A stretch of 64,000 nucleotides of DNA from Fimbriimonadaceae bacterium (GTDB taxonomy: Bacteria > Armatimonadota > Fimbriimonadia > Fimbriimonadales > Fimbriimonadaceae): positions 1 through 64,000 of the forward strand of contig JAHCHO010000014.1 of the NCBI GenBank assembly GCA_026129685.1, read 5' to 3'. A program made the translations under genes and the position numbers. The notes below the pieces were generated by a model. That model did not search any database and was not told the DNA's origin. It was given only the letters and a program-made list of their open reading frames with translations. Shown here piece after piece: positions 10,156 to 13,211 of this stretch; positions within the stretch are counted from its first letter, which is position 1, and the number at the start of each line of letters is the position of its first letter.

Positions 10156-11607
10156 CTATCCGCCGATGGCGCGCCGCGCCGGAGCGGGGCCGGATCGGAC
10201 GACCTGGGCTTCTGCCGGAGGGGCCACCGGGGTGACCGCCGGTTGCTCTGCGGGCGTCGGGGGATCGGTCTGGCGCGTAGCGCCGCTGGGCGCGGGAGCC
10301 GGAGTCACCGTTGCGTTCGCGTTGCGAGCCACGATCCGGGGTCCACCCGGATAACGGCTGGTACCGAGCGGTTCGCGAACGACGACCTTGCCGTCCTTTT
10401 TGACCACGCGGAACGTCGTGACGGCGTGTCCGCCGCTACCTTTTTCCACCACGCGGGTCTTGCCAGGAGGGAGAGACGCGTCGTGGACGACCTTTTCCGG
10501 TCTCGCCCACGAGGAGCGGCCGGAGGACTCGATGGCCACCTCGAGAGACGGGTCCTTTGTGCCGAGGATGCGGGCGGTCAGCTTGCCCGGCTCGTACTGC
10601 ATCGCGATGGCGACCGGCGTCTCAAGGGTGTTCTTGAACTGGAGGTCGAGCGACCCGTAGTCCACCGTCGCGTCGCGGCCGACCGGCACGTAGGCGACGG
10701 GCATGGAATGGTTCGACCGCCGCAGAATCTTGAGGTTCGCGAAGAGGGCCGCGTTGTAGAGTGTCGTGCTCACTTGGCAGATGCCCCCGCCGACGCCCGT
10801 GTCGTGCCGGCCGTTAACGTAGACGCCGGCCACCTTGAAGCCGCGCGCGATCGTTCGACGGCCGACCCGCTCGTTGAAGCTGAACGTGTCGCCGGGCATC
10901 AGGACGGCGCCGGACAAGATCTCGCTCGCCAACTTTATGTTGGAGGTGCGGGGCGGGTTGCGCGGAAACTTGGTCGAAAACTCCGTGACGACTTCCTTGA
11001 TCGCGTCCAGCGCGTCGTCGGGAACGTGCTTGTCCGTCTCCTTGATGGGCAGTTCGGCCGTACGGCCCTGTTCCATCGCCTGGGCGAGAACCTCCGGCAA
11101 TCGGTCCTTGTCGAGTTCGAGTCCGCCGATCTCGGGTTTGCGGACGATCTGTCCCGCCACCCAGTCCACACGGGCGGGAGTCGGCTTGGGTAGGGCGCTC
11201 GCGAGGGCCTTGTCGAGGGCGCTCGTGCTCGCCTCGACGTAGCGAAACTTCAGCGGAACGTCGGTGGTGCCGCTTCCGCTCGGAGCGAGGGAGCCCCAGA
11301 AGTCCCGCAAGGGGATCGAGGCGATCGTGCCGACGACGTCCAACTCGACGCCAAGTTCCTTCGGTTTGGCGGCAAACTCGCCCTTCGGCAGGAACTTGCT
11401 CTTGAGCACCACGTCATCCTTCTGGCCTTGGTCGCTCCACCAGTACTTGAGCCGGCCCTCCGCCTCTTGGCGTGTCAGGTTTCCGACCGGGAGGTTGCCG
11501 ATAAAGGTGTTCGGCGGGATGGTCGGCTCGTGACGGGAGGCCATCATGGGCAACGCAACGCCCATGCCCAAGATGGGTACGCAGAGGATGCCGACCGCTT
11601 TCTTCAT
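10156..11607 (-). CDS. VanW-family exported protein
   Basis: A 483-aa protein with an N-terminal signal or anchor (KKAVGILCVPILGMGVALPM), a peptidoglycan-binding-4-like region (GNLTRQEAEGRLKYWW), and the VanW domain (PGDTFSFNERVGRRT, GVGGGICQVSTTLYNAAL, DATVDYGSLDLQFKN). After that comes a G5-like stretch (KTRVVEKGSGGHAVTTFRVV) and a Pro/Ala-rich tail. VanW proteins are envelope proteins of poorly defined function, first named from vancomycin-resistance clusters; nothing here implies resistance. ATG 11607 is chosen because the signal peptide starts there. The gene stands alone, with a 137-nt gap to the next gene upstream. Confidence 0.88.
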   Translation of the reverse strand: MKKAVGILCVPILGMGVALPMMASRHEPTIPPNTFIGNLPVGNLTRQEAEGRLKYWWSDQGQKDDVVLKSKFLPKGEFAAKPKELGVELDVVGTIASIPLRDFWGSLAPSGSGTTDVPLKFRYVEASTSALDKALASALPKPTPARVDWVAGQIVRKPEIGGLELDKDRLPEVLAQAMEQGRTAELPIKETDKHVPDDALDAIKEVVTEFSTKFPRNPPRTSNIKLASEILSGAVLMPGDTFSFNERVGRRTIARGFKVAGVYVNGRHDTGVGGGICQVSTTLYNAALFANLKILRRSNHSMPVAYVPVGRDATVDYGSLDLQFKNTLETPVAIAMQYEPGKLTARILGTKDPSLEVAIESSGRSSWARPEKVVHDASLPPGKTRVVEKGSGGHAVTTFRVVKKDGKVVVREPLGTSRYPGGPRIVARNANATVTPAPAPSGATRQTDPPTPAEQPAVTPVAPPAEAQVVRSGPAPARRAIGG

Positions 11608-11744
11608 TCCGTGTCTACTTGAACGCACTCGGAAACGTCCTTGTTTCCGGGAGGAAACTTCGTCGCTACGCATTATGACGGATCGACAAGGATGGGGTTC
11701 CCGGCGGACCCACCGTTGCCGTCCGGAACCCTTGACGGCAACGG

Positions 11745-12401
11745 CTATCCGCCCGGAGGCGGCTCGAGGGAGTCCGCGACCGCACGGTCGAGCGTTCGCT
11801 CATCGACCTTGCCGACCCACTCCGCCACGATCCGCCCGTTTCGAACGAGGAAGAGACTGGGAATGGTCTTGACGCGCCAGGCCGACCAGGTCTGGGCCGT
11901 ATCGTGGAGCACCGGATTTGGGAACGCGCCCTTCCGAAGGAACCTCTCCACGTCGGCGGCCTCCTCGTCGATGCTAACGCTCAACATCTCGAAGCCCCGA
12001 TCACGGTGTTTGGCACGGACTCGGTCGAGCATGGGTTTCAGTTTGTGACACGGACCGCACCACGACGCCCAGAAGTCCACGAGGATGGTGCGGCCCTTGA
12101 AGGCGTCCCCGTTCCAGCGGACCCCTACGCCGTCGCTCAGGTCGAAGGCCGGCATGGAGCGTGGGAGAGGCAACGGCAGGAACGACTCGGGATCGGCGGC
12201 GAACGCGACCGACTCTTTCGAACTGCAGAAGTAGTACGCCGTTCCTCGGTAGCGCAGGCCGGCCACGATTCGCTCCTCGCCATGGTCGCTCGAGGTTGCG
12301 GCACAGACGACGCACCTCCCTCGCTTGGGAAGCTCCGCTTTGGGGATGGCTTGGGAAGCGGCTTGCGCGGCGATCGTCAGAACCAATACGGCGAGACTCA
12401 T
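11745..12401 (-). CDS. Exported YHS-like/thioredoxin fusion protein (TlpA-like)
   Basis: A 218-aa protein with a signal peptide (MSLAVLVLTIAAQAASQA), a YHS-like domain (RCVVCAATSS...GTAYYFCSSKESVAFAADPESF, residues about 27-75) and a TlpA-type thioredoxin domain with the active site WASWCGPC and the cis-proline region KTIPSLFLV. It should act in the periplasm as a thiol reductant or metal/redox carrier. The start ATG 12401 is 10 nt after the stop of the gene at 12412, and both share the promoter at 13223-13251. Its partner gene carries two in-frame UGAs arranged like UxxU, which makes a redox partnership plausible but unproven. Confidence 0.85.
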   Translation of the reverse strand: MSLAVLVLTIAAQAASQAIPKAELPKRGRCVVCAATSSDHGEERIVAGLRYRGTAYYFCSSKESVAFAADPESFLPLPLPRSMPAFDLSDGVGVRWNGDAFKGRTILVDFWASWCGPCHKLKPMLDRVRAKHRDRGFEMLSVSIDEEAADVERFLRKGAFPNPVLHDTAQTWSAWRVKTIPSLFLVRNGRIVAEWVGKVDERTLDRAVADSLEPPPGG

Positions 12402-12411
12402 GGTTGGCACC

Positions 12412-13056
12412 TCAAAAGCCCCAGCCGAGGCTGAGGCCGAGTTTGGGTCGCTGCAAGTCCACGGCGAGCAGCGACACATTGAACGACGCCTGCTTGTAGG
12501 TCAGCAACAGATGGCTCCGCCGACCGTCGTTCATGGGCAAGAGATCCCACTTGGGGTGAAGCGCAATGTTCACGCCGAACGGAAAGTTGAGGCCGCGCTC
12601 GAAACCCGAGTAGTTCAGGCTGACGTAGGGGGCGAGTGGGGTGCCGTGGAAGGCCTTCGCGAACGTCGCATAGTACGCCTGGTTCCCCTTCGGCGTGAAG
12701 ATGCGGTCGCTGCTCGTCCCGAAGGTCACGAGCGGACTCGTGGCGGTCTCGGGCGAGGCGATCCAGTTGGCGGTCGGCGAGAACTCGCCGACGACGAGGT
12801 TGTACTCGAAGCCGAGGCTGAGGCGCGGTCCGAGACGACGCGCCAGATTCAGGCGCCAACGAGGCCTCGCAACCGTGGTGTCCACGTAGCGCAGAGTGAG
12901 TTGCCAATCGAACTTGATGTCCCTCGAACCGAGGAACCGGCCCTCGCCGGGTCACCCGGTTCACGTGGGCACCGCCACGTTGGGACGCTGGATTTGCTGA
13001 CCGAGGGCGACCGCCGCGAGAGCAGCCGCGAACGGCAGGGCGAGATATCGTGTCAA
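12412..13056 (-). CDS. Exported beta-strand-rich protein with two in-frame UGAs (candidate UxxU selenoprotein)
   Basis: From TTG 13056, preceded by GGAGG at six bases, the frame encodes a clear signal peptide (MTRYLALPFAAALAAVALG) and QQIQRPNVAVPT. It then meets UGA (12961-12963), Thr-Gly, UGA (12952-12954), and continues open to TGA 12412 (PGEGRFLGSRDIKFDWQLTLRYVD and on). Read through, it is 214 aa with residues 32 and 35 as U-T-G-U. The rest has alternating, aromatic-rich strands ending LGLSLGWGF, like a small outer-membrane barrel. A SECIS-like hairpin follows the second UGA. No stop-free shorter version keeps both signal peptide and barrel. Alternatives are a pseudogene, a pair of compensating sequencing errors, or a shorter protein from an internal GTG (12885). 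The family is not recognised. Confidence 0.5.
12919..12937 (-). promoter_or_regulatory. SECIS-like hairpin after the double UGA
   Basis: In the mRNA, GUUCCUCG pairs with CGAGGGAC (8 bp, one G-U) around a 3-nt apical loop GUU. The loop starts 22 nt after the second UGA and 31 nt after the first. Both distances, the small loop and a G in its first position fit the published description of bacterial SECIS elements. GC-rich coding DNA forms hairpins easily, so this supports but does not prove selenocysteine insertion. Confidence 0.45.
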
Positions 13057-13211
13057 GGGTGCCTCCGATGGAATCGAGCGATCAGGGACGAGTCGGTTGA
13101 CGCGGCGGTTGGATGGATACGGCCCCGTTGGCGAGCCGAGTGGGCTCGATCGGCCAACCGGCCCACGAGACCGACGAGCGCCAGGACGAACGGCATGAGC
13201 GAGCGGGGCAT
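13053..13211 (-). CDS. Possible 52-aa leader peptide
   Basis: A short frame (MPRSLMPFVLALVGLVGRLA at its start, then an Arg-rich tail) whose TGA overlaps the TTG start of the next gene in a TTGA arrangement, as in translational coupling. The GGAGG of the downstream gene lies inside it. Its own ATG is only about 5 nt from the predicted transcription start, so it would be nearly leaderless. It may equally be just untranslated leader. Confidence 0.22.
   Translation of the reverse strand: MPRSLMPFVLALVGLVGRLADRAHSARQRGRIHPTAASTDSSLIARFHRRHP

Follow-up and report, generated by a model that had tools for sequence, protein, structure and literature searches.

A probable exported double-selenocysteine β-barrel with a thioredoxin partner, encoded in a Fimbriimonadaceae genome and in relatives from about ten bacterial phyla

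The window analysed here, a stretch of 64,000 nucleotides from a Fimbriimonadaceae bacterium (contig JAHCHO010000014.1), carries on its minus strand a gene apparently broken by two stop codons. We conclude that this is a real gene and that both UGA codons almost certainly encode selenocysteine (Sec). The product would be an exported selenoprotein in which the motif U-T-G-U stands shortly behind the signal peptide and ahead of a 12-stranded outer-membrane β-barrel; a thioredoxin encoded by the adjacent gene would be its partner. We place the probability of this reading at about 0.87; the value excludes any role in metal handling, and neither the protein nor its selenium has been measured. Computation lends good support to Sec at both UGAs, to the hairpin, to the fold of the barrel and to the linkage with thioredoxin, while the location of the UxxU centre, the identity of the electron donor, the metal role and the function overall are inferred. 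In the absence of direct evidence for selenium, the double-Sec coding appears about as firm as comparison alone allows.

Conservation and decoding of the two UGA codons

The features of the locus are given in Table 1. The original prediction described GGAGG with a TTG start, a signal peptide, the sequence UGA-Thr-Gly-UGA and a long open frame, and all four were recovered on the minus strand. From the TTG at 13056, the frame runs through the signal peptide and AVPT-UGA-Thr-Gly-UGA-PGEGRFLGS, then remains open to the TGA at 12414-12412, for a precursor of 214 residues in which U occupies positions 32 and 35. The signal peptide is supported by the hydrophobic N-termini of the relatives, many of which have A-Q at the end.

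Table 1. Features of the double-Sec locus in window coordinates
Feature	Position	Strand	Basis or remark
Double-Sec selenoprotein gene (predicted)	12412..13056	-	Read-through ORF; full-length homologues with UGA at both sites
First Sec codon UGA (U1)	12961..12963	-	Cys in this column in L007, clade C, most of clade D and L154-L160
Second Sec codon UGA (U2)	12952..12954	-	Cys in this column in clades B and C, L051, L053 and L154-L160
Ribosome-binding site GGAGG	13062..13066	-	5 nt before TTG; read directly from the sequence
Signal peptide, residues 1-19 (LTRYLALPFAAALAAVALG)	13000..13056	-	Cleavage before QQ judged by eye
SECIS-like hairpin, 8 bp stem, GUU loop at 12929-12927	12919..12937	-	Inside the coding sequence; covariation in 62 sequences
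12-stranded outer-membrane β-barrel domain (predicted), last residue Phe	12415..12906	-	AlphaFold2 and fold matches (FapF, KdgM)
Partner gene, exported YHS/TlpA-ResA-like thioredoxin (CGPC)	11745..12401	-	ATG at 12401, 10 nt after the selenoprotein stop
YHS-like segment of the partner, residues 50-76	12174..12254	-	Pfam PF04945, E 9e-5, sub-threshold

Homologues were collected with a query carrying X at both UGAs from 85 genomes of the same family, 41 of which gave matches. About 32 close relatives have both UGAs, at 44-65% identity, and one member of the same group reads C-A-G-U. A wider scan, in which an alignment of the clade was run against a genome collection of 84,980 species, returned 137 relatives, and 80 were kept. 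Their MAG labels comprise Armatimonadota, Acidobacteriota (Thermoanaerobaculia, Pyrinomonadaceae), KSB1, Eisenbacteria, Krumholzibacteriota, Latescibacterota, Poribacteria, Gemmatimonadota, Calditrichota and others, about ten bacterial phyla in all. One MAG, labelled Akkermansia muciniphila, has a UPVU form (L137); its label or its binning may be wrong. One of the two patterns used in the wide scan had Cys at both positions, so that any bias would favour the Cys forms.

The motif U-x-x-U-PGEG is present in 78 of the 79 readable loci, as UTGU (31), USGU (16), UPLU (12), UVGU (10), UAGU (3), USAU (3), UPGU (2) or UPVU (1); the remaining locus has CAGU, a C-x-x-U form. The alignment spans the whole protein, and UxxU, CxxU, UxxC or CxxC falls at exactly these columns, with PT before U1 and PGEG after U2 conserved and no gap between them. 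The argument that two UGAs so placed exceed chance was borne out by the same in-frame pair in relatives from dozens of genera. In a profile search across the phylum (291 genomes), TGA was the in-frame stop within the matches, apart from TAG in two marginal fragment matches (E 2e-5 and 3e-4).

Two stops close to each other in one frame could also mark a pseudogene, or a sequencing or assembly error, the UGAs then being damage to a once intact gene. The homologues rule this out: dozens of independent genomes, at 40-65% protein identity, have the same two UGAs in the same frame, and the in-frame stops are almost exclusively TGA. In particular, an assembly error is excluded because the pair recurs in independent genomes across phyla.

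Cysteine was the sole replacement of UGA observed among the relatives. Among the more distant relatives, clade B reads PT-U-A-G-C, and clade C has YHS domains fused to PT-C-A-G-C; clade D contains C-P-L-U, C-P-L-C and U-P-L-U, and further relatives have CPIC, CPVC, CPGU, UPIU or UPMU. A tree of 125 proteins, a quick one with some long branches, holds 90 UxxU, 16 CxxU, 16 CxxC and 3 UxxC forms and requires at least six U/C changes at the first column and at least three at the second. Cys can occupy either column on its own, and each UGA therefore represents a Cys-like residue. Conservation of an in-frame UGA in homologues, together with its exchange for Cys, is a criterion for selenoproteins and is met here. 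The clade D paralogues (CPLU, UPLU, CPLC and similar; L050, L052, L055, L056, L067-L070 and L161-L173) make up another, divergent branch of this selenoprotein superfamily and often share a genome with a UxxU form.

The genome of the window encodes the Sec machinery, a point on which the double-Sec reading could have failed: SelA (484 bits), SelB (75.5 bits), SelD (356 bits, with one in-frame TGA) and a tRNA-Sec with anticodon tca. This SelD (L152) reads HCAGUAGK, with a GTT-loop hairpin after its UGA, and is predicted to be itself a selenoprotein. We then compared the occurrence of the UGA forms with that of full-length SelB, defined as 580 aa or more (a cut-off chosen after the lengths had been seen), in the 85 same-family genomes. 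Full-length SelB accompanies UGA-bearing forms in 37 genomes and is missing in two, which are merely 75% and 68% complete. It is present in 5 and absent in 6 of the Cys-only genomes, and present in 9 and absent in 26 of those without a homologue, making 14 with and 32 without among all non-UGA genomes pooled. The difference is significant against all the rest (p 3.5e-10) and against the Cys-only genomes alone (p 7e-4).

These data bear on two other readings of the UGAs, both very improbable. The first holds that UGA is a normal stop and that the barrel is made separately by re-initiation. Gene finders would split the gene in this way, and some internal GTG codons exist. The separate barrel piece would, however, be without a signal peptide, and the reading is rejected on the gap-free conserved flanks of the UxxU, the replacement of U by Cys at both columns and the tracking of full-length SelB by the UGA forms. 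The second supposes that UGA is read as another residue, by a reassigned code or by generic read-through; the frame alone cannot show which residue goes in. It is rejected as well: TGA terminates the window gene itself and 39 of the 80 relatives, only Cys takes the place of UGA, and tRNA-Sec, SelA, SelB and SelD are present, the latter of Sec type. We retain selenocysteine at both positions, where both UGAs would be read by SelB and Sec-tRNA.

A SECIS-like hairpin probably common to both UGA codons

The hairpin GTTCCTCG-GTT-CGAGGGAC (12937..12919) forms a stem of 8 bp, and its loop begins 22 nt past the second UGA and 31 nt past the first, the very distances initially proposed. The claim that it is of the SECIS type is strengthened by a covarying stem in the relatives. 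In 62 ungapped sequences from clade A and other phyla, a 7-bp stem is paired at 97.2%, and five of its pairs show changes on both sides. Doubly changed cells number 94 versus 39 in shuffles, and the covariation reaches 0.63 versus at most 0.27 for slid partners. RNAalifold found the same stem independently. The loops, 22 nt after U2, are mostly GUU, GUG or GGG.

In clade D, a hairpin of unrelated stem (GGAGCCG-GTT-CGGCTTC) occurs at exactly the same offset, and clade B likewise has one at the common offset. Relatives with a single U, in either column, retain the hairpin at the same place: it occurs with U1 only in clade B and with U2 only in L007 and clade D. Because a hairpin at one place accompanies U1 only, U2 only or both, the decoding of both UGAs most likely rests on a single element; one hairpin would then serve two UGAs nine nucleotides apart. 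Among the CxxC relatives the hairpin is mostly lost. Two CPLC proteins (L051 and L053) have kept the GFGASS peptide, yet only 1 and 3 of 7 positions pair.

A SECIS hairpin closely following the UGA, its small loop containing G/U, is a further criterion for selenoproteins and is present, with one group left unresolved: in the Pyrinomonadaceae UPLU group, no 7-bp hairpin was found at the common offset. Conserved Gly/Ser codons could be the source of part of the pattern. Taken singly, sequences gave an only modestly better hairpin than their codon-resampled versions (group medians 0.06-0.15), and the strength of the evidence lies in the comparison across sequences, not in single ones.

Predicted barrel and thioredoxin partner

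The body of the protein, previously called only barrel-like, is predicted to be a 12-stranded outer-membrane barrel, the location itself being a prediction. AlphaFold2, run with 95 relatives, gave a model with pLDDT 93.6 and pTM 0.87, in which 12 long strands follow about 30 residues; over these first 30 residues the pLDDT is 70-83. The best fold matches are outer-membrane barrels, namely FapF (Z 17.5), KdgM (15.9) and COG4313 (15.7), followed by autotransporter and FadL barrels; Foldseek was also used. For the first three, the fold match comes at merely 11-14% identity, and no Pfam link was found; to our knowledge, no UxxU motif is known in FapF, KdgM or COG4313 channels. Phe is the last residue in 71 of the 80 relatives. 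The signal peptide (by eye), the even number of strands and the C-terminal aromatic residue together satisfy the criteria for an outer-membrane barrel.

Nearly invariant charged residues (R37, R49, E65, E84, D98, R99, K115, D158 and H163, mature numbering) suggest a functional interior and not a plain pore. Several fold alignments take in model residues 13-30, and the FadL and autotransporter segments that match this part lie in or near the pore. The UxxU may be situated at the periplasmic mouth of the barrel or inside it; this is an inference, as the model coordinates were not inspected. The Sec pair would constitute a periplasmic redox centre, either diselenide/diselenol or metal-bound, carried on the barrel's N-terminal segment.

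The exported CxxC thioredoxin proposed as electron partner is encoded directly downstream, and the link is conserved in the relatives. Its gene exceeds the Pfam cut-offs for Redoxin (1e-14), AhpC-TSA and Thioredoxin (8e-15), with YHS at 9e-5, below the cut-off, and it meets the criterion for a TlpA/ResA-like protein, an exported CxxC thioredoxin fold; against NCBIfam ResA it scores 70.7 bits (cut-off 170). The YHS segment is clearer in relatives, where 11 flanking ORFs reach E <= 1e-5. The conserved neighbour or fused partner is of the same kind as the TlpA/ResA-type thioredoxins; it has Cys, not Sec, at its own active site, plus the YHS-like segment in front. Of the 79 loci, 57 have a YHS/TlpA-type thioredoxin as neighbour or fusion partner (immediately downstream in 43, upstream in 3, and fused in 11, all Pyrinomonadaceae). 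No recognised thioredoxin was found next door in the other 22 loci, some of which are on short contigs. In Pyrinomonadaceae (L132-L135, L140-L143, L146, L147, L149 and L150), a thioredoxin-like domain behind a VCCAECWAEADR segment is fused to the UPLU barrel. Clade C (L043-L049) consists of YHS-CxxC barrel fusions, and the downstream thioredoxin, where readable, is without the YHS segment. We infer that the YHS/TlpA thioredoxin is likely the electron donor and would act as reductant of the UxxU centre. On the other side of the thioredoxin gene, 71 bases after it, a VanW/G5-domain gene (10156-11673, minus strand) was not seen in the conserved neighbourhood.

Possible function and relation to known selenoproteins

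Several Fimbriimonadaceae have an ArsR/SmtB-type regulator (75.8 bits, LCVCE motif) upstream of the selenoprotein. A tiny Cys-rich metallothionein-like ORF (e.g. MSETTCPCCANGPCACPPCQDGECKCPCCANGNCPCTENCPNCDCC) lies directly upstream in L014, L020, L024-L029 and L058, often behind an ArsR-type regulator. Such neighbours suggest thiophilic metal or metalloid stress; they were found in part of the Fimbriimonadaceae only, not beside the window gene, and none was seen in other phyla. Profile searches of the flanks gave mixed neighbours elsewhere. Cation-efflux genes (PF01545) occur near three flanking sets.

The job that we rank first, still tentatively, is an outer-membrane redox step in which thiophilic metals or metalloids are involved. 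The double-Sec barrel might be a binder or an exit route for a soft metal or metalloid of the Cu, Hg, Cd and As class, the Trx/YHS protein reducing the selenols and handing over the metal. This remains possible but unproven: thiol-motif ArsR-family regulators and metallothionein-like ORFs directly upstream in several relatives speak for it, as does the YHS fusion of clade C. The evidence for a metal role is nevertheless weak because such genes are restricted to some members of a single family and are absent beside the window gene, the neighbours of the other loci being mixed.

Alternatively, the thioredoxin could supply the electrons for the same barrel to reduce oxidants at the outer membrane (peroxides, lipid hydroperoxides or wrong disulfides), with no part played by metals; we hold this to be somewhat less likely. 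Most uncharacterised selenoproteins are judged to be likely redox proteins (PMC13188914), and the thioredoxin linkage is far more general than the ArsR or metallothionein neighbours. Two observations do not fit this reading well: the recurrence of YHS segments, whether fused to the barrel or within the partner, and the ArsR/metallothionein-like genes of some operons. The function is left open between metal- or metalloid-linked redox and the reduction of oxidants at the outer membrane.

No curated family was matched by the 95 members in Pfam or NCBIfam (best stray E 0.0065 and 0.045, respectively), and the window protein hits none in either collection. A census of 2026 lists 119 prokaryotic selenoprotein families, with nothing like a double-Sec barrel: FmdB, a Prx-like and a metal-binding protein are its only UxxU entries, and its outer-membrane barrels have only one Sec (PMC13188914). 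The suspicion that the family was unrecognised holds for all three sources. In the open-licence literature, we found no earlier report of UxxU proteins, Armatimonadota selenoproteins, outer-membrane selenoproteins or bacterial diselenide proteins.

The closest known systems differ in several respects. The metal-binding UxxU family NF041115 and the FmdB-type selenoproteins likewise have two Sec in UxxU (PMC13188914, Table 1), but none of the 95 members matches them (stray NCBIfam E 0.045 or worse) and ours are exported barrels. The GSU2204/MtrB-PioB family NF041027 and the TonB receptor of FCYxU type, NF049945, are, like ours, outer-membrane barrels with Sec (PMC13188914, Table 1); they have one Sec each and belong to other families, without NCBIfam match to ours, whose barrel is small by comparison (12 strands, about 165 residues). 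The YHS domain (seleno)protein NF041384 shares the YHS-type segment with clade C and the partner; the match is far below the NCBIfam cut-off (22 vs 70 bits), and there the Sec is in the YHS protein, not in a barrel.

Three features probably explain why the family escaped notice: gene finders halt at the first UGA, Cys forms are outnumbered and the two UGAs lie near each other; the authors of deep-Sep give the lack of Cys homologues as a limitation of their tool. In many genomes, the public annotation of these genes is likely to be truncated.

The YHS-like segment of the thioredoxin, the span of about ten phyla and the ArsR/metallothionein-like genes of some operons go beyond the original prediction. 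As a tentative picture, for which we would not claim even odds, the family may be an old outer-membrane redox system of these phyla, with a UxxU selenium pair as its normal state, one SECIS for two UGAs and reduction by the YHS-thioredoxin; it would act as a diselenide switch, possibly gating or binding soft metals. These results add an unlisted, widespread selenoprotein family in the outer-membrane barrel, a place and fold with few listed selenoproteins. Most members found have Sec at both positions and a minority have Cys, the reverse of the pattern on which homology-based Sec finders rely. The UxxU, CxxU, UxxC and CxxC forms, with and without hairpin and SelB, offer a clean natural set on how one SECIS may serve two UGAs.
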